Shown here piece after piece: positions 1,008 to 26,642 of a DNA stretch of 64,000 nt (positions are counted from its first letter, which is position 1; each line of letters starts with the position of its first letter). The DNA lies in assembly GCF_949628265.1 (NCBI RefSeq), contig NC_088786.1:8680001-8744000 (forward strand), given 5' to 3'. The notes under the pieces are model-generated. The model had not been told where the DNA came from, ran no database searches, and was given only the letters and a program-made list of their open reading frames with translations. Origin of the DNA: Cloeon dipterum. Lineage: Eukaryota > Arthropoda > Insecta > Ephemeroptera > Baetidae. Position numbers and translations under genes: made by a program.

Positions 1008-2262
1008 GGCTTCAAATCTACGCATCACAAAGTCCAGGATAATAACAAAAATAAGCTCTTTGTGTACTTTCTTGAGTCAACTAAATTATCGCAGAAAGTC
1101 AATGACCGTTTATCAGCCGCATTCGCAGACGGTTTTATCCTAAAAATTTTAACATCAATTTTTCGTTTTCCACATACCTCATATTTTCTTTTTAATTGTT
1201 TTTCATCACTTTGAATCAGTCTATACTTTTTAATAATTTTCAAGAGCTATGTTTAGAATTTTTGGATTTGTTGCAGGAATTTTAATTTTTATGTTCAGAG
1301 CATTCAACGAGGAAAAAATTGTTTTAATTCTGAATTTGAGGCAATTTTCTCGAAACTTGCCTGGCTTTTTGTTACTAATTTAGATTGTAATCTATCCAAA
1401 ATTATGTGGTTTGCACAAAAAATTTCCGTTTAGTACATAGTGAGGGAAAAAAATTGTAATTCTGTGGACACATGCTGTGTTCATCTAATCCTTAAAAAGA
1501 AAAAAATGGGAGCCAATTTATTGCGGATATTTACTTCTGCAACTTGACAAAATTTTAGGATATTGTGATTTGACCCAATTTTTGGAGAGCAAGCATTAAA
1601 ATTAAAAACATTTCCCTAAAACCAAAATCCCACAATTTCCACGATTTTTATGAATTATTTACAATAATATATTAAAAGTTGGCTGACCAAAATGTAATAA
1701 TTAAATTTTAGGTGGTACTTCTCAAAAGTATTGAAATTTTTAACTATGAACTAATTAGTATTCAATATTGAAAATATTAGTATTTCTAGATGCAAAATTT
1801 TGCGAAATTCAGATACACGTGGGGAAAACAAAAGATTATTTCTCCGGCTGGTGGTATGTGGTGCATTTTTGCACATAGCAAATTTGGTGAACCCTGCTCA
1901 TTATCATTATACTGGACTTTAAAATTATTAAAAAGTTATCATAAATTTATTATACCAAGCTTTTACGTCACTGATACGTCAATCCGGAAAATTCTTCGCA
2001 GATATCAATGACTTATTAATTCCATTCAATAATTCAGTTCAATGTGAGAATTTTCCAGCGCGGCATCTATATTCAAATCCACAGAGCCAAAAGGGGGCGT
2101 GGCGGCTGTCATGCAAACAAGATCTCTGTATCTGAACGCCTTTTTATTTTGTGGGCCATTGAGTAATCTCTGACGAGAGAGAGAGGGAGATCGTTGACCC
2201 GAGGCACAGTCAAAGAGATTTGGCAGATTGTTAGTTTTGCAAGCAGTAGTCCGTGCAGAAAG
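1008..2262. other. Divergent spacer, metallothionein to Gnpda
   Basis: AT-rich, with only short shadow reading frames. The last 100-150 nt before 2263, with a GA-rich stretch near 2178-2190, are probably the Gnpda 5' UTR and core promoter. No TATA box is obvious there. Nothing else recognised. Confidence 0.4.
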
Positions 2263-4355
2263 ATGCGTCTCGTGATCCAGGACAACGCGAGCGAGGTGTC
2301 CGACTGGGCCGCCAGATATGTCATGCGAAAGATCAACGACTTCGGTCCTTCGGACGATCGCTTTTTCGTCCTTGGCTTGCCCACCGGTAGGTTTATCACA
2401 TTAATTAAATTCCAAACATAATTTCTCTCCTGACCGTGCCCAATTCTAGCACTGACAACTCCGCAACTTTCACATTTCGCCTATGCAAAATGATGCCTGC
2501 AAAAATTTGTCTAGTTTTTTTTCCAATAATTAGAATGAAAAAATGGACAAATCTTTGGGATAAGAATTTAATTTGTGTTCTTTATTCTTTAATTCATTTG
2601 ATTTTTTCACACATTGTTTTCTCCTTTATTCGTTTATAATTAATTTAGTAAATAATTATTTCCACAGGTGGCACGCCATTGGGCATGTACAAAAAGCTGA
2701 TCGAGTTGTTCAAAGATGGCAAAGTGTCCTTTAAATACGTCAAAACATTCAACATGGATGAGTATGTCGGTGAGCAATTCAAAGAATTTACAAAAAAATC
2801 CTTTTTAATTAATTTGGATTTTAGGACTGCCACGAAACCACCCTGAGAGCTACCACTACTACATGTTTGAAAATTTCTTCAAGCATATTGACATCGACCC
2901 CAAGAATGTGCACCTGTTGGACGGTAACGCGCCCAATCTGGAAAAGGAATGCGTCGAATATGAAGAGAAAATCAAACAATCCGGAGGCATCGATTTATTT
3001 GTTGGAGGTGCTGCACTTAATTAAATGCAATTAAAATTTGGTATCTAATTTTGTTGGGATTTATGTAGGCATCGGCCCTGACGGGCACATCGCTTTCAAC
3101 GAGCCTGGCTCGTCGCTGGTCTCGCGCACCAGGGTCAAAACTCTGGCCCAGGACACTCTGGAGGCCAACGCGCGCTTCTTCAACAATGACATTTCCAAAG
3201 TGCCTAAGCAAGCTCTCACCGTTGGGGTTGGAACCGTCATGGACGCCCGAGAGGTATTATTTTATTCCTTACTCATAGGCGGGTGTGTTTATTAATCATT
3301 TCCTAAATGTTTGAAACTGACCATCAAGGTTAAAAAACTAGCTTTGTGTTTCGTTCAGTTTATTTTAAATTAACTAATCAAATAATGCATTTTTTTATTT
3401 TTGGAATAGTAGAAACATTAAATGGTTTAATGAAGAAAAATTGAGGGCAAAAAAAATATATGATTGATTTCATTTTTTTTTTAAATCTAAGACAGCTTAA
3501 ATTGAAAATCAAGGTTTCATGGAAAAGTAATTTTAAAAAATAGTCTCTTCACTCTGTTCTCGCCCACAATGTTGATTAAAGTCGATTTTAAGACGCCATT
3601 TAGGAAATCAGGAATTTCTTATAAATTTTGAAATGTTGACACTTGCCGCCTTTAGCTTTTAGGCTTTTAGCTTTTAGGGGAAAAAACAGTCAACCAACTA
3701 AAAACTCTCAATAGTTAAATGATGATATATTTCATTTTACCTGAGAAAAGAGAATCCTGGGTACATTCCGTTCTAACATGTAAAATTTGTTCCTAAAATG
3801 TGTAGAATTTCATGAAATTATTTTTATGAATATTTGGCAAACATCACTGTAACGGGAAACCTAATAAATATCATTTGGGAAATTATTGACGCATGATTTT
3901 TTTAGCTTCTAGAAATTTTTGTAGAATTTCTAACAATGTATGCCAAACCTAAAATGTATAGAATTTCATGAAATTTGGCACAGTAAAATGCAAACGTTTC
4001 CTCGTCAATTGAAAGCATCACCCATCAGTCTGATTCCTAGACGTAAACTTAAGGATCATCATCTCCCCCTGTCCTCAGGTAATGATCTTGATCACTGGGG
4101 CCAACAAGGCGTTCGCCCTGTACAAGGCCATCGAGGAGGGCGTGAACCACATGTGGACCGTGTCTGCTTTCCAGCAGCACCCACGGACCCTGTTCATCTG
4201 TGATGAAGACGCCACTCTGGAGCTTCGCGTCAAAACTGTGAAATATTTCAAGGTATAGTAGGAGAAACAAATAAAACCGCTTGCCGACTTGAATTTTGCG
4301 ATACGTGTTTCAGAATTTGTGGAGTGTGCACAGCAAGTTGGTGGACACGATCTGA
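2263..4355 (+). CDS. Gnpda1: Glucosamine-6-phosphate deaminase (GNPDA)
   Basis: Six exons, 2263-2386, 2668-2769, 2825-3007, 3069-3253, 4079-4252 and 4314-4355, encode 269 residues. The enzyme is cytosolic and converts glucosamine-6-phosphate to fructose-6-phosphate and ammonia, the catabolic branch opposing hexosamine synthesis (in arthropods, also the chitin precursor route). Family signatures seen in order: [11 protein letters not shown] near the N-terminus (phosphate and substrate loop), [19 protein letters not shown] (catalytic Asp region), [17 protein letters not shown] (active-site His region), and [19 protein letters not shown] followed by [10 protein letters not shown]. The protein aligns along its whole length with animal GNPDA1/2 but ends at KLVDTI, lacking the roughly 20-residue tail of the human 289-residue enzyme. 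Introns are short except intron 4 (825 nt). The start is the first ATG in frame with the conserved N-terminus. The neighbour on the minus strand, PGAP5, is convergent. Confidence 0.95.
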
Positions 4356-4433
4356 CTGAACTAACTCATTCCCAAAAATATTATGTCTTATTCCATTCCT
4401 TCCGCGTGAAAAGTTTATGTTTTCTTGTTGAGT

Positions 4434-4439
4434 AATAAA
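4434..4439 (+). terminator. Gnpda polyadenylation signal AATAAA
   Basis: An AATAAA hexamer lies 79 nt after the Gnpda stop codon and is followed by a GT/T-rich stretch, as expected for a short 3' UTR. Confidence 0.65.
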
Positions 4440-5460
4440 AGGCTTTACTGGGCATGTTATTTTAAATTAACACGAGTTTTATTATTTGTTGGTTATTATT
4501 AATAATAATTATTACTGCTTACGAGTTTGGACTCGGAAATCGGTCTTTTGGATAGTGGAATGGCGTTTTGAACAACATTTACAAATGGTTAGGTATCAGA
4601 AGACTAGGGTTATCACATTTAAGACACATCAAGTACAGCACATACATCAACATTAATAATATATATACATTGTAATAAATAACTTAATTTGTACCAATGT
4701 CTTATAGAAATTAATTTGCTTCGTCAACATAGTAGTTCACAAAATATATTTATATTTCAATTATTTATTGCTAACAAATTGAGAGCAGGCTAAAATTTGT
4801 AAAACTTTTATTGAGAAGCTAAGAGTAGGCAGTAAAAGGACCTGGCCAGTGCATTTTGTGATCAAACGAGAAAAGTCAAGCTTCACCTGGGAATTTATTT
4901 CTGCCGTAACATTAAAATCGAATATTTCAGACCAAAATTACGAACAACTTGACTTAGGCTTACAAGAAATCACTTTAGGATTTGATGTTACTATCTAGTA
5001 TCCAACGAGTTACAAAATTTACTCGAGAAAGCTTTTAATTTGATAATTTCACTTTTTTTTAACTAAAACGTTAAATCCAGTTTTTTTAATTAGCCTGGCA
5101 TAAAAAATACTTACAGTTAGTGGAGAAAAAAAATATATTCCCAGTTTCTATTCATTGCTTTTCAATTTTCTTCCAACCACAGGAAAATTCAGTGCAAAAC
5201 TAATTATTTTCAGCTGCCAATAAACAGATTAGTAAACATTTATCATGTACAAAGGCAGCTTCACAACATCCCAATTCCATTGTAGATTTTGATTTACATT
5301 ATCATGAAGGCTTATGCCATAGGCGCAACAAATTCACCGCCAAGTGAGTTCAGCAAAGCTTTAGAACGCGTGGTTAACAAAACGTTGGTCTCCTCTAGCT
5401 AAGATATATTAGGGTGAGGGAAAATAAGAGGAGCAGCAGGGAACCAAGCAGGAGGCCTAG
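4440..5460. other. Convergent spacer and probable PGAP5 3' UTR
   Basis: AT-rich, without a supportable exon. Several minus-strand AATAAA hexamers (for example plus-strand TTTATT at 4807-4812 and 4894-4899) could end the PGAP5 transcript; I cannot choose between them. Confidence 0.4.
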
Positions 5461-7899
5461 TCAGCTGTTCTTCACCCTCTTCCACCTCCTGGGGTTGGAG
5501 CCTACGGTCAGGCCGAGGGTGATGCACGCTCCTCCGAAGAGGTACAGGTAGATGACCGTCGACTCTGCAGGCATGTAGCACTTTCCCACTGCGTAATTAT
5601 TGGCCGTGAAAACACCCTGGAATTAAAAAAAAATAGAATGATGTACTTCAAAAAGGAGGGCGTAAAATTACATACCAAAAGAAAGCTAGGGTTGTTTTTG
5701 TTGCGCCAGCTGAATGAGGGAACCGTCCACTCATGGGTGCCATCAGGGTAGATTCTGTGACAGCCGTGGTGAGTGTGGCCAGTGGTGATCAATCTCGGCT
5801 CAAGCATCTCCATCAACTGTATGAAAGGGAAAATACAAGATATATGAATAAATATAACTGGAGGATTGCGAAAACATTTTTTTAGAGATTTAAAAAAACT
5901 ATATAAGTGCAGCATTTGTTTTTAAATTTAAAAAAAATATATTTTTATGAGATCAGCTTTATAGTGAAATAGACATCATTTGAAATTGAAGCAATATTTG
6001 ATTTAGAAGCTCGGTTATGACGTTATTGGGACGCAATAATTAATAATTGCGAGCTGGTCACTATCAGGGGGTAGCCCATCTAAAAAAAGATAGACTGATG
6101 AAAAATCAACCATTATAAAAATAAAACTAATAAGCTTGGGAATTTAATAGGACACCAGCAGAATTTTTTTTAAACCCCAGTGGCCATCCACATTGCGTCC
6201 ACGAAACCTCAAAAATTGACACACTATTTTCTGCTCAATGGCACTTAGGATTTTTCTCCTCATATTAATTACATAATATTAGGCAGGATGTGCAGAAACA
6301 ATTGGTCAATCACGCCATTCCTTTAAGATAAGTATGCTGGTTTTAAAACCATAGAAGGGTTGAACACATCTTATGACCTTATGATACATTTAAAAGGCCT
6401 CCAGAGCATATTTTTTGGCTTCCTTACCAAGTCTGACGACTCTCTGGAGAGACACTCCCATCTCTCTCTGAACTTTTGCTTCTTTTCATCTTCCGGCGCC
6501 TGATCAGGGCCACTGCAGTTGATATCAGACTCTCGGAACATAGGGAAATGCTGGAAAATATCATTTAAACCTGCAGAAAAAAGTTTAAAATTAAATCCCA
6601 CCTGTAGTAAAATCGGTTTGCTGTATTGACTTAATTTTTGGATTTTCTTGCACTTTGCCGTTCCCTTGGTGCACTTTAGTCGGGCTGCAAAAATTAAATA
6701 GTGATATAAATTAAGAGTTATTTGAGGTTATCTTTACTTGAAATTTGCTGAAGATGGATTTGAGCCGGTCTGCACAGGAAACAGCCATCACCCTCCATCG
6801 CCATCGAGTTGACTAGCACAAAATGAACACCGCGGCGGGACAAAATTTGTACTGAGGGTGCGTCCATGGCTGTGGCAAATCTCTCTTGTAGATACGGACT
6901 TATCCTAGAAATTTACACCAAAAATAGCATTTAAGTCAAATCGGAAAATAGACACTCTTTAAATAATGGTAAAAGATTTTTTTTCCAAAATTATAAAAAC
7001 AGTATAAAGTAAAATAATTAAAATTTTATTTATAGATAACACGATTTATCTATCTAGAACTGGATTTTTTTAATTTCTTGCTTTATTTTTGTACTTGTTT
7101 CATTAAAATTTTGGAAAACCTTTTCTAATTTCAAATAGAAAATTTTTAATTTACGCTTCTTTAAGTAATAGCTTCTACTGCCTAGTCTGTCATCTATTTA
7201 AATTTCATTTTCAGTTTTAGCAATAACATTTAAATGATAATAAACGCACCCATAATGAAATCCAATGTCGTGGTTGCCGACTACGACGTGAAGCTCTGTG
7301 TTGTCCGGCACACTGAACAGCGTCCGAAATCTTGCTACGTAATTATTGAATTCAGTTTCGCTGCTCCAGAGGCCCTCATCAAACACGTCTCCCAAGACGA
7401 AAACTATGTCCGGCTTGTGCAGAGTGACTGCAGATTGAAATGCACGATGCATCTGCCACTCCCTGATTTTAATGAGTTGTTGTTTGAATTACATTTATAT
7501 TTGTACACTAACTGAATAAATTCATACCGTCTTAATTTATCGAACCAATGTCCTCTCCTAGTTCCAAGCAAATGCGTGTCTGCGATGAACATCGCCCGGA
7601 CAGGCTCCTCATCTTTGTTGCTCACGGTTATTTTCTTGTCCTCCAAAGCCGAGTTCAACTCTGGCCATGAACACTGGATTTATTTTCAATCAATTTTAAC
7701 TACTAAATAGTAAATATAAAAATTACCTGAAATAGGACAACATAGTAAATGAGGAACTCACAGTAGACCATTAAACTGAAGACCCCAAAGAGTGTCCAGC
7801 TGATCAGGTTGGTTTTGTGACCGCCAAAGCTGACTAGAATGGTTTGACATTAAATGCATGATTTTTGCATTGAACCTATATGGTGTGATTCTTACCCAT
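5461..7899 (-). CDS. PGAP5: PGAP5/MPPE1, GPI-anchor remodelling phosphoesterase
   Basis: Nine coding exons (7899-7896, 7833-7727, 7673-7528, 7462-7250, 6904-6738, 6684-6602, 6550-6428, 5816-5676, 5616-5461) give 379 residues, close to human PGAP5 (396). The protein is a Mn-dependent calcineurin-like phosphoesterase of the early secretory pathway. It removes the side-chain ethanolamine phosphate from mannose 2 of GPI anchors, letting GPI proteins leave the ER. Seen: an N-terminal membrane segment (from [14 protein letters not shown]), then metallophosphatase motifs [34 protein letters not shown] and [10 protein letters not shown] second hydrophobic segment ([19 protein letters not shown]) sits near the end. 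The last residues, KRVKNS, have Lys at -3 and Arg at -5, resembling the KxKxx retrieval signal of this family. The first coding exon is only ATG plus G; an internal ATG in exon 2 is the alternative start. Confidence 0.92.
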
Positions 7900-21700: not shown

Positions 21701-24700
21701 GGGCAGGTTGCATTTGAATTTTATTTGGGGGAAGAGACAATTTTATAAATAAAATATTTATGATAATTAATTTTTTATTCTTCGTCAGTTTCTCTCTGAC
21801 TTTTTCTACCGGGCGCCGAGTGACAAGATGGCCAAACTGCTTGTCGAGAAGAACATTCCAGTGTTCCTGTACCACCTGAACACGTCCGTTGAGGCCCTGA
21901 GGGCGCCTTACTGGCGCAGGGTGCCCCACGACACGGAATATTTCTTCCTCACTGGAGCACCTTTCATGGACCACGGTCCGTTTGTTCATGATTATACCAT
22001 TAATACAGTTTATTAAAAAATTTCTTTCTAGAATTCTTTCCCTTGAAGTTGAGACTGGAGAATGTAAGGTGGACCGACAGTGACAGGAACATGAGCCACT
22101 TCTTCATGAAGGCCTACTCGTTCTTCGCACGATACGGGTATTTATTTTGCCCAATAGCAAAATTTCCAACTTGCTAAACGTTTTATTCTCTTGCAGTCAT
22201 CCTTCGCACGAGCAAATTCTTGGTTTGCACTTCCAGCCTGCACAGACTGGTCGGCTCTACTATCTCAATCTCAACACGACCTACAACTCCAGCATCATGG
22301 TCAACTACAATCAAAAAGAGTGTGCCTTTTGGTCCAATTATTTACCCAGCGTGATTGGAATTCTGGTGCCAACCTATCCTCCCACCACTGAGGTGAGATT
22401 TTAAAATATTACAATCAAAAAATTTAAAAAAAATCATTTCGCAGTTTTGGTGGGAACCAAACCAGCCGATTCAGGTTGCATTTTGGAGCATCACGTCGAT
22501 TTGCGTGCTGCTGCTCGTCATCATATTCATATGCTGCGTGCTTTGGAGAAAAGCAATAAGGTAAGAAATCGAATTTTTCTCTTGCGAGAGACGCGTGCTG
22601 TATATATGCGCGGACTGCACACTGCTCGAGAAAGAGTGAGAGTATAGCAAGCACAACACGGTATAGGAAAACAATACTTCACATTCTGTTCATGAAAGCT
22701 TTTAGCGCCGCAATAGGGCTGAGCCTTAGGCAGCCTTATAAATCCTCGAGGAATCGCTTATAATCACTAACTCTGTTTTCCAAGCAGCAATTATAACCAA
22801 CTTAGGAACAGTACCAGGTGATGGATGGAGTTTGGATGACAATTTTTTAACATTAGGCAGAGCAATGCTTCCTAATGACAAAATTACACGGATTAAAATT
22901 TTAATTAGTTAATATGGGGCTGTAATAGTGATTCATACATTATTAGTAATTCTTTTAGACTGTTTCAACTGCGGCTTCCACACATTTAAGAGCTACTCAA
23001 AACATTACAACTTCCTAAAATTGGCACAGAAACTAAAAAATTTAAATGTTAAATCTTTATATTTAATAAGTTTTTTCACGGTTTTAAAAATACGCCAAGA
23101 TGTAAATTATAAATGTATTTGAGCCACATTCCGTCAAAGCAACAAATTTCTGTCCGGGGGTCGATGGATTTTGATGAATTTTTTTCTGCGGTAATTTGGC
23201 CCTAATTGCACTACAATACAATTGAGAAAACTCCGACTTTCCAATTTTTGCGGGTTTTGCGGGCGTTAAAGGGTCAAAATCTGGGAATTTTGAGTACTTC
23301 ATAACTTTGCTCAGGGTGGTCCTAGAACAAAAATTAAAAAACCCGCAAATTCGTCTTAACAAGACAAACAACTTTTACATTGACCTCAAAGTGGTAGGTC
23401 AAAGGTCAAGGTCATAAAAATTGATTTTTTTATTTTGAACTCAAATTTGAAAATGAATATATCGAAATTTTTTATTTTTTTCATGACCATTTTGTAGAGC
23501 ATAAAAAATTGAGTTAAAAACGTTAAAATTTGGAATGGCGTTTTGCCTCATTTTTTTACTAAAAAATGAAAACTTCGAAAACCCTTGTTTTTCGATGTTG
23601 GTAAAAAACGATGATTGACCAAATCTCGACTTCTAGTCATCCGAATTTCCAAAACCGCATACCGTTAGACTCCTCTCGACGTCCCAAAGTGTACTAAAGG
23701 GGTATGAGACCCACCAACCCCCAACCCCCTTTTAACCCCCTAAATAACGTGAAATTTAGAATTTTTCGTCCGTTTCAACACCTTATCATGACGTTGACGA
23801 GTAATTGTCTTCTTCGAACCAATTCATTAACTTAGTTCACTCAAAGACGAGTCAAATGGAACTTATTTTTTGTAAATAGGACCACCACAACCTGAGATTC
23901 GGGTGCACAAAGATTTTTTTCTAAACGCGATGCAATAAAATTCTGGATGATCGACCAAATCTCGACTTCTAATCATCTGATTTTGAAAAACCGCATACCG
24001 TTAGACTCCTCTCGACGTCCCTAAGTGCATTAAAGGGGTATGAGACCCACCAACCCCCAACCCCCTTTTAACCCTCTAAATAACGTGAAATTTAGAATTT
24101 TTCGTCCGTTTCAACACCTTATCATGACGTTGACGAGTAATTGTCTTCTTCAAACCAATTCATTAACTTAGTTCACTCAAATATGAGTCAAATGGAACTT
24201 ATTTTTTGTAAATAGGACCACCACAACCTGAGATTCGCTTGCACAAAGATTTTTTTCCAAACGCGATGCAATAAAATTCTGGATGATCAACCAAATCTTG
24301 ACTTCTAATCATCTGATTTTGAAAAACCGCATACCGTTAGACTCGTCTTGACATCCCCAAGTGTACTAAAGGGGTATGAGACCCACCAACCCCCTACCCT
24401 CATTTAACCCCCTTAATAACGGGAAATTTAGCATTCTTTCGTCCGTTTCAACACCTTAGCACGACGTTGACGAGTAATTGTCTTCTTTAAACCAATTTAG
24501 TTACTTAGTTCACTTCAATACGAGTCAAACGGTACTTAATTTTTGTAAATAGGACCACCTTTTTGTGTTTTGTTCGAGATTTGGTGCTCACCGAGCATTT
24601 TAATGCATCCGCGTCTTAATAAAAAACTTTGTGCCACTCAAATATCAGGTTGTAGTGGTCCTATTTTCAAAAATTAAGTATCGTTTGAATCGTTTTGAAG

Positions 24701-26642
24701 TGAACTAAGTAAATGAATTGGTTTGAAGAAGATAATTACTCGTCAACGTCATGATAAGGTGTTGAAACGACCGAAAAAATGCTAAATTTCACATTATTAA
24801 GGGGGCGAAATGGGGGTTGGGGGTTGGTGGGTCTCATACCCCTTTAGTACACTTGGGGATGTCAAGACGAGTCTAACGGTATGCGGTTTTTCAAAATCAG
24901 ATGATTAGAAGTCGAGATTTGGTCGATCATCCAGAATTTTATTGCATCGCGTTTGGAAAAAAATCTTTGTGCACCCGAATCTCAGGTTGTGGTGGTCCTA
25001 TTTACAAAAAATAAGTTCCATTTGACTCGTCTTTGAGTGAACTAAGTTAATGAATTGGTTTGGAGAAGACAATAACTCGTCAACGTCGTGTTAAGGTGTT
25101 GAAATTGACGAAAAAATGATAAATTTCACGTTATTGAGGGGGTTAAAAGGGGGTTGGGGGTTGGTGGGTCTCATACCCCTTTAGTACACTTTGGGACGTC
25201 GAGAGGAGTCTAACGGTATGCGGTTTTGGAAATTCGGATGACTAGAAGTCGAGATTTGGTCAATCATCGTTTTTTACCAACATCGAAAAACAAGGGTTTT
25301 CGAAGTTTTCATTTTTTAGTAAAAAAATGAGGCAAAACGCCATTCCAAATTTTAACGTTTTTAACTCAATTTTTTATGCTCTACAAAATGGTCATGAAAA
25401 AAATAAAAAATTTCGATATATTCATTTTCAAATTTGAGTTCAAAATAAAAAAATCAATTTTTATGACCTTGACCTTTGACCTACCACTTTGAGGTCAATG
25501 TAAAAGTTGTTTGTCTTGTTAAGACGAATTTGCGGGTTTTTTAATTTTTGTTCTAGGACCACCCTGAGCAAAGTTATGAAGTACTCAAAATTCCCAGATT
25601 TTGACCCTTTAACGCCCGCAAAACCCGCAAAAATTGGAAAGTCGGAGTTTTCTCAATTGTATTGTAGTGCAATTAGGGCCAAATTACCGCAGAAAAAAAT
25701 TCATCAAAATCCATCGACCCCCGGACAGAAATTTGTTGCTTTGACGGAATGTGGCTCATTTACTAACTTTCTATTCAATTTCACTACCAATTTAAAATTA
25801 TTAAAATTTGTACAGAGTTGGCGAACATTTTAAAAATATTTTCATGATACCTGAACAAATCAAGTAGAAAATTTCTAACAAAATCTTGAATTTAATTTTT
25901 CTTTAATACCTTTTAAAAATTACACTGCCAGTCAGGAAATTAATTCCATTGATTTCAGCTTAAAATGAACAACATTTGGGACTAAATTTTTCTCAAATAT
26001 GTTAATAAAGGTATGCATTTTAATAAATTAATCTTAAATCGGAAAGGAAGACTCAATTTTTTTGGAAAAATCATTCACAGCCCTGTATTAATTTGTGATG
26101 GTGCACTTATAAAAAAATTAACAATTTTAAAGCAAATAAAAAAACTCATTAAAAAAGGTGCATCTGATCAATCAGAACTTTAGGTCAAAATTACCTCTTC
26201 GAAGCATTGCTGGGCCTAGTGTGACGCGTGGCCCAAAGGTTAATTGCGCCCTTCAGCCCGTTCTCATTTCAGGGATAACTCGGACCTGTACAGCAGCCGC
26301 GTGCTGATCGACCGCGACAACGAGAGCCATCTGGACACGTACGAGTTCAGCTCGCTGCCGCTGGAGAAGCCGCAGGCGGCCCCGGCGGCCCCGCGGCCGG
26401 CGCTTGCCGTGCAGTCGCACCCGATGCCCCAGCCGCGGGGCAACCACGGCCCCACGAAGGCGATGAGCACGCCGTCCCTGCGCAGTGGCGGCAGCAACTC
26501 GTCCCTCAGGGGCGACGCCTCCTCGCTCAGGGACGAGTACACCACCTCGTCCAGCAGACCTAGTCTCAACCCGCACAACACCAGGTACCCCAAGTCCCAG
26601 AAACAGATGCTGCACGACCTCGTGCCGCAAACGCAAGTGTAG
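15726..26642 (+). CDS. Gli: Gliotactin, cholinesterase-like junction protein
   Basis: Thirteen coding exons give 899 residues: 15726-15874, 17318-17822, 20283-20429, 20522-20675, 20732-20943, 20999-21166, 21218-21419, 21472-21659, 21789-21975, 22032-22137, 22197-22392, 22445-22560, 26273-26642. Gliotactin is a single-pass, catalytically dead cholinesterase-fold protein of tricellular septate junctions, needed for epithelial and glial barriers. Seen: a signal peptide (residues 1 to about 23), a Gly-rich low-complexity stretch, then the cholinesterase domain with [49 protein letters not shown] and [14 protein letters not shown]. The nucleophile elbow reads GPGAG (362-366), so the catalytic Ser is Gly; Glu in THDEAAFF and His in VPHDTEYFF remain. 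A membrane helix spans about 749-772. The 127-residue tail is Ser/Pro/Arg-rich and ends in TQV, a class I PDZ ligand like that binding Discs-large. The start is the ATG beginning the signal peptide; a longer upstream in-frame extension lacks signal-peptide character. Confidence 0.95.
15875..20282 (+). other. Gli: Gliotactin introns 1 and 2
   Basis: Intron 1 (15875-17317) and intron 2 (17823-20282) are long, AT-rich and without a recognised gene or exon. These two and intron 12 are the only long introns; the rest are 51-130 nt. Long first introns often hold enhancers, but I see no specific element here apart from the C tract at 19611-19626. Confidence 0.5.
19611..19626. repeat. Gli: Poly-C tract (C16) in Gliotactin intron 2
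   Basis: Sixteen consecutive C residues follow a pyrimidine-rich stretch. Tract length may be affected by sequencing error or slippage. Confidence 0.9.
23617..24558 (+). repeat. Left-arm tandem array, 336-nt period (2.8 units)
   Basis: Units start at 23617, 23953 and 24289, exactly 336 nt apart, each beginning near ACCAAATCTCGACTTCTA (third copy CTTG). Each carries the landmarks CCGCATACCGTTAGACTC, GGGGTATGAGACCCACCAA and AATAGGACCACC. The third unit stops after GGACCAC near 24558. Copies differ by scattered substitutions, so they diverged before or after the arm duplication. Confidence 0.9.
24590..25261 (-). repeat. Right-arm tandem array, two inverted 336-nt units
   Basis: The same units occur in reverse orientation, with boundaries (GATTTGGTC) ending at 24924 and 25261, 337 nt apart. 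The innermost unit, from about 24590, is the most diverged. The right arm has two units against 2.8 in the left, so the arms are unequal although the outer 496 nt match. Confidence 0.85.

Follow-up and report, generated by a model that had tools for sequence, protein, structure and literature searches.

A GAGCC foldback family with tandem repeats inside its arms in Cloeon dipterum, and a very probable recent insertion into an intron

A 64,000-nt stretch of the Cloeon dipterum genome was analysed (assembly GCF_949628265.1, contig NC_088786.1, positions 8,680,001 to 8,744,000; hereafter the window, whose own numbering is used below). It contains a 2,637-bp element at 23121-25757, within the last intron of a gene on the forward strand. 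The element is very probably a foldback DNA transposon, non-autonomous and recently inserted. It was delimited by its ends, arms and repeat units and by comparison with homologous copies, many of which are dispersed through the genome with target-site duplications (TSDs) of their own.

The termini of the element are GAGCC at 23121 and GGCTC at 25757. They are flanked by ATTT on each side, which forms the left (23117-23120) and right (25758-25761) TSD. The left outer arm (23121-23616, forward strand) and the inverted right outer arm (25262-25757, reverse strand) are 496 nt long and match at 496/496 sites; the left arm overlaps the first tandem unit by its final 7 nt. Near-identity passes beyond these 496 nt into the first tandem unit, giving 652 nt at 99%. 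Tandem Repeats Finder located a left array with a period of 336 nt and 2.8 copies (23610-24559, forward strand) and a right array with a period of 337 nt and 2.1 copies (24574-25268, reverse strand). Inner arms of 461 nt, 93% complementary, lie on either side of a 96-nt central spacer (24559-24654). The spacer, the TSDs and the element as a whole are unstranded features. The 23-nt end sequence (≤3 mismatches) had two matches within the window and 0 in 100 shuffles. Long inverted repeats make up the bulk of the element, as in the structural class of foldback elements. No reading frame of ≥150 amino acids (aa) was found in it; two mirror-image stop-to-stop frames reach 96 and 109 aa, and the 109-aa frame had no match in Pfam.

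An earlier note on this DNA, made from the sequence alone, had described a foldback element with a repeat array inside its arms. It gave essentially identical, inverted 496-nt outer arms, perfect inverted ends starting GAGCC with ATTT flanks, 336-nt units (2.8 on the left, two on the right) around a spacer of about 95 nt, and no visible transposase. The arm and unit analysis bore out this description, and its end coordinates were exact. The note had also held that the element is not a simple miniature inverted-repeat transposable element (MITE). MITEs are short (under about 0.8 kb) and have short terminal inverted repeats (TIRs); a MITE was ruled out by the length of 2,637 bp and by arms of >1 kb.

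The genome searched for copies comprised 190 Mb. The 28-nt terminus (≤3 mismatches) was found at 74 ends, 37 per strand, with 0 control matches. Paired by hand according to coordinate, these ends gave 27 convergent two-ended elements, spanning 1,411-3,646 bp with the window copy counted, and 20 single ends. The search for further copies with the same ends, which the earlier note had proposed, thus added 26 two-ended pairs. At least 40 matches to the 496-nt arm covered 492 nt or more of it with 96-100% identity; this number is a lower bound, 40 of 501 first-look candidates having been scored. Together with the window, 40 fetched loci were read (41 loci). The order arm, units, spacer, units, arm recurred across them, with 0 to 6 units per arm, partial units counted, and truncated copies were also present. 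Both the variation in arm-internal repeat number between copies and the dispersal of copies with TSDs are as in foldback elements. At 27/41 loci, window included, the flanks matched those of no other locus.

The 336-nt unit pattern had 213 matches genome-wide, with small clusters among the 100 listed. No long satellite array was seen among these 100 of 213 matches, and the longest run, of 6 units, lay within an element. The term satellite-like, used in the earlier note, is therefore apt for the anatomy of the array only.

Related flanks were observed at some loci. At L073, L074 and L075 (G000:C4:24.91, C1:37.45 and C2:15.32 Mb), the flanks outside the foldback were 97.7-100% identical, and a larger composite unit has therefore been copied. 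L064 and L065 (G000:C5:31954244 and 31962658) are 8.4 kb apart with flanks 97-99% identical, a local duplication that includes the element.

Both ends were located in 34/41 loci. The 4-bp duplications that the earlier note had suggested seeking at other copies were perfect in 18 of the 21 copies with exact termini and one base off in the other three (L041, L042, L045). In the 13 other two-ended loci, the TSD was perfect in 3, had one mismatch in 4 and more in 6. Control 4-mers, taken at equal outward shifts, matched in 19/1,768 cases. Set against this control, the 4-bp TSDs of the dispersed copies identify a mobile element. The 21 perfect sites yielded a target motif of approximately TRT-AWWT-AYA, which is palindromic; both strands were counted, and the symmetry is built in by this way of counting. 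AWWT was the commonest duplication over the 21 sites; individual sites differ, e.g. GACT and ACCT.

Arms were compared in the 27 elements with both arms complete, and clades were grouped at a mean of ≤15 mismatches. One clade held 17/27 elements, and four elements stood alone. In the 17-copy clade, left-right mismatches totalled 63, compared with a mean of ~136 on random re-pairing, and 0/5,000 permutations were as low. Two smaller clades leaned in the same direction (5.25 vs 9.2 for 4 copies, 3.5 vs 9.5 for 2 copies). Within the large clade, 21 substitutions were confined to a single element and shared by its two arms, and another 49 were private to one arm. The window copy carried 2 element-private substitutions in both arms and 0 private to one arm. 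Because the arms of one copy are more alike than those of other copies, arm-to-arm conversion is shown statistically, with exceptions. For Galileo, repair of one arm from the other has been proposed by its authors as a source of arm growth (PMC3573991).

An autonomous partner was sought with three terminus patterns (one with 100 of its 106 matches listed), and no clear long pair was recognised by eye. Among the fetched loci L039-L094, frames of ≥150 aa were present only in L080, outside its palindrome (see below), and in L081. Of the single-end places read, L091 (4.0 kb) is a diverged relative whose longest frame has 111 aa; L092 (2.6 kb), a solo arm, has none above 84 aa. As no transposase was found, the GAGCC family is probably non-autonomous. 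Transposase-binding repeats within the units, which have been proposed for Galileo, had no clear support, with 9/100 shuffles as good for tip against unit. The corresponding numbers were 53/100 for tip against reversed unit, 43/100 for arm against unit and 7/100 for arm against reversed unit, all with shuffles made of two-base blocks.

These results are best explained by the following history. A transposase encoded elsewhere would have recognised the GAGCC...GGCTC ends and acted in trans by cut and paste. The element entered a palindromic AT-rich site, of which 4 bp were duplicated. Its arms would have been kept alike by arm-to-arm gene conversion or by hairpin-templated repair. Gain and loss of 336-nt units, probably by unequal exchange or slippage, would account for the length differences observed between copies. 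Within the host gene, it most likely rides along in the intron as a passive passenger.

Identical arms would also be expected if the structure had originated locally, by a unique inverted duplication and local tandem amplification in the intron, without any transposon. To this we give practically no credence. The 26 further two-ended pairs have like ends, and like anatomy where read, the flanks of 27/41 loci, that in the window included, match no other locus, and dispersed copies carrying their own 4-bp duplications refute it. Perfect inverted arms are, in addition, a classical assembly hazard, and the sequence might have been collapsed or falsely mirrored. Such an artefact is very improbable, since copies of the same architecture occur in different flanks, with differing unit numbers and intact 4-bp duplications. 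Mirroring of one side into the other is also excluded by the inner arms, which are complementary at only 93%.

A regulatory role was considered with the help of predicted folds. Folded to its minimum free energy (MFE) of -2012 kcal/mol, the element forms 1,204 pairs, of which 1,162 join one half to the other, and a 621-bp perfect helix; the predicted hairpin persists in the fold of the whole intron. A transcript of the host gene could form a hairpin >1 kb long, and small interfering RNAs (siRNAs), editing or back-splicing might follow from it. The 1,162 left-right pairs, the long helix and the low MFE would suit a domesticated hairpin, whose intron double-stranded RNA would be a source of siRNAs or a substrate for editing and would influence the host gene. 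We regard domestication as improbable: the anatomy is common to other copies and therefore not specific to this gene, and the 2 substitutions private to the window copy fit a recent insertion. Recent insertion of a non-autonomous foldback transposon is the reading that we favour, and two observations weigh against it. Neither a transposase nor a longer autonomous copy with GAGCC ends was found by pairing termini by eye and by screening the loci read for frame length. Also, arms are not homogenised in every copy, with left-right mismatches of 16 in L045, 17 in L047, 21 in L064, 20 in L065 and 67 in L069.

At 3/41 loci, representing two independent cases, the foldback lies at the centre of a larger palindrome. 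L079 (G000:C3:13649000-13658900, which contains L067) has a near-perfect 5.3-kb palindrome at 2371-7661, the exact centre of which is occupied by a GAGCC foldback. The junctions are mirrored (AAGT-GAGCC...GGCTC-ACTT), and the arms have 0 mismatches over the outer 2.4 kb. L080 (G000:C4:31017000-31026900, which contains L071) has a 5.8-kb palindrome at 2012-7835, in which 2 mismatches lie beyond the central bin. From its central foldback, the same 36 bp of tip are missing at each end. The L080 case recurs as a second copy in L072 (C2:16.50 Mb). Beyond the foldback, the arms of L079 have no match to those of L080; the first 375-385 bp of each are 95-96% like one other genomic place, and weaker matches occur elsewhere. 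At G000:C2:25682810-25687092, inverted arm matches (72%) and inverted matches to the 336-nt unit share a common centre, 25684951, to the base. From the match coordinates alone, this is likely to be another nested palindrome. The outer ends of the larger palindromes are CACTCACAGA or CACACAGAG. Possible 2-bp duplications (TA, TT, AA) were seen at 5/6 outer-end places, with none clear at L087/L088, and are too short to carry strength.

Long-arm elements with CACTCACAGA ends and the same length (~10.1 kb) were observed at two places, G000:C2:16173837-16183958 (L081/L082) and G000:C3:32338182-32348303. The L081/L082 copy, the one of the two that was read through, is related to the L080 type and has 2.5-kb arms (99.8%). 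Its 691-aa frame had a sub-threshold match to Plavaka (E 0.033, 13.9 bits vs a cut-off of 26.3). The ~10.1-kb elements are possibly autonomous relatives of the outer elements. Inverted match pairs spanning 1.7-3.0 kb and ~72% like part of the L079 outer arm were also found (e.g. G000:C3:8394102-8396841, C5:2704922-2706771 and C1:21522731-21524811), and are perhaps a further foldback family in the genome.

The nested palindromes might indicate that the GAGCC family can act as a palindrome seed, an idea that we put forward tentatively and consider rather unlikely. A copy would insert in another transposon, and its hairpin centre would promote mirror copying from the end of that host to the foldback centre, yielding a giant mobile foldback. 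Direct insertion into the centre of a ready-made palindrome is disfavoured, because it needs a self-complementary duplication, and the AAGT of L079 is not self-complementary. Ordinary arm conversion, followed by deletion between two foldback copies, could also have led to the same end product. In Galileo, both arms may come to include a transposable element that had entered just one of them (PMC4168063). Mirroring therefore has a precedent, and the foldback as its seed would be new. The nested palindromes offer a concrete, testable case for the growth of long-arm transposons.

The host intron (22561-26272, forward strand) is 3,712 nt long, and the element occupies 71% of it. Its borders (GTAAGA...TTTCAG) were read from the sequence as GT..AG, and the exons on either side are joined in phase. 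The preceding exon (22445-22560, forward strand) reads as a transmembrane helix and the following one (26273-26642, forward strand) as a cytoplasmic tail with the stop TAG. Because the next exon ends with this stop, the intron is the last one, in agreement with the earlier note. Pfam COesterase was matched by 4/8 exon pieces, one of them below the curated cut-off, and the other 4/8 had no match. The host reads as a carboxylesterase-like membrane-protein gene, for which Gliotactin, the name used in the earlier note, is putative. Rfam gave 0 matches at gathering score in the window. For this gene, a large structural insert is now marked in the intron.

Among the titles and opening lines of abstracts seen in literature searches by word, none described the GAGCC family; the sequence itself is not searchable there. 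As far as these searches show, it is new as a family and ordinary in kind. The family is young and has many copies, each of which keeps a legible record of arm-to-arm conversion and of change in unit number.

Mobilisation by a Sola2-like transposase is possible but doubtful. GAG ends fit Sola2 termini. However, no transposase was seen with GAGCC ends among the termini paired by eye and the loci read, and the Ginger, Chapaev and Academ superfamilies also give duplications of about 4 bp. Sola2-type elements resemble the GAGCC element in their 4-bp AT-rich TSD, reported as AWWT (PMC3627910), and the commonest bases of the GAGCC duplications, A-W-W-T, agree with this. The Sola2-type elements in that report have short TIRs (12-21 bp) and, in some families, a transposase, whereas the GAGCC element has long arms and none was found.

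Foldback (FB) elements, most of which are assigned to the Mutator superfamily (cited in PMC4079207), share long, internally repetitive inverted arms with the GAGCC element. They differ from it by its TSD of 4 bp, and the Mutator link was judged by TSD length alone. Anatomically, Tetris and Galileo are closest. Tetris, a foldback of Drosophila virilis that its authors place with the Mutator-type foldbacks, has long inverted arms, an outer flanking domain, tandem repeats of variable number and a middle domain, as does the GAGCC element. Both are without coding capacity, and no autonomous partner was found for either (PMC4079207). Tetris units are ~220 bp long, compared with 336 in the GAGCC element, and its TSD is 8-10 bp, compared with 4 bp. 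Tetris units also build long satellite arrays, which were not seen for the 336-nt unit in the 100 of 213 matches listed. A stretch of 37 bp is common to the outer arm and unit of Tetris; the GAGCC counterpart is not clearly above chance.

Galileo, of the P superfamily, is alike in its long inverted arms, in tandem repeats in some copies, in the 98-100% identity between the arms within a copy and in arm extension, which includes transposable elements that insert in one arm and end up in both (PMC3573991, PMC4168063, PMC3688188). It differs in having copies with transposase segments and a TSD of 7-8 bp, against 4 bp here. The 4-bp TSD speaks against membership in either group, and both the Mutator-type foldbacks (FB, Tetris; 8-10 bp) and Galileo with the P superfamily (7-8 bp) were rejected on TSD length. 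With its 4-bp duplication, the GAGCC family is one more case in line with the published view that transposon superfamilies unrelated to one another give rise to foldback anatomy.

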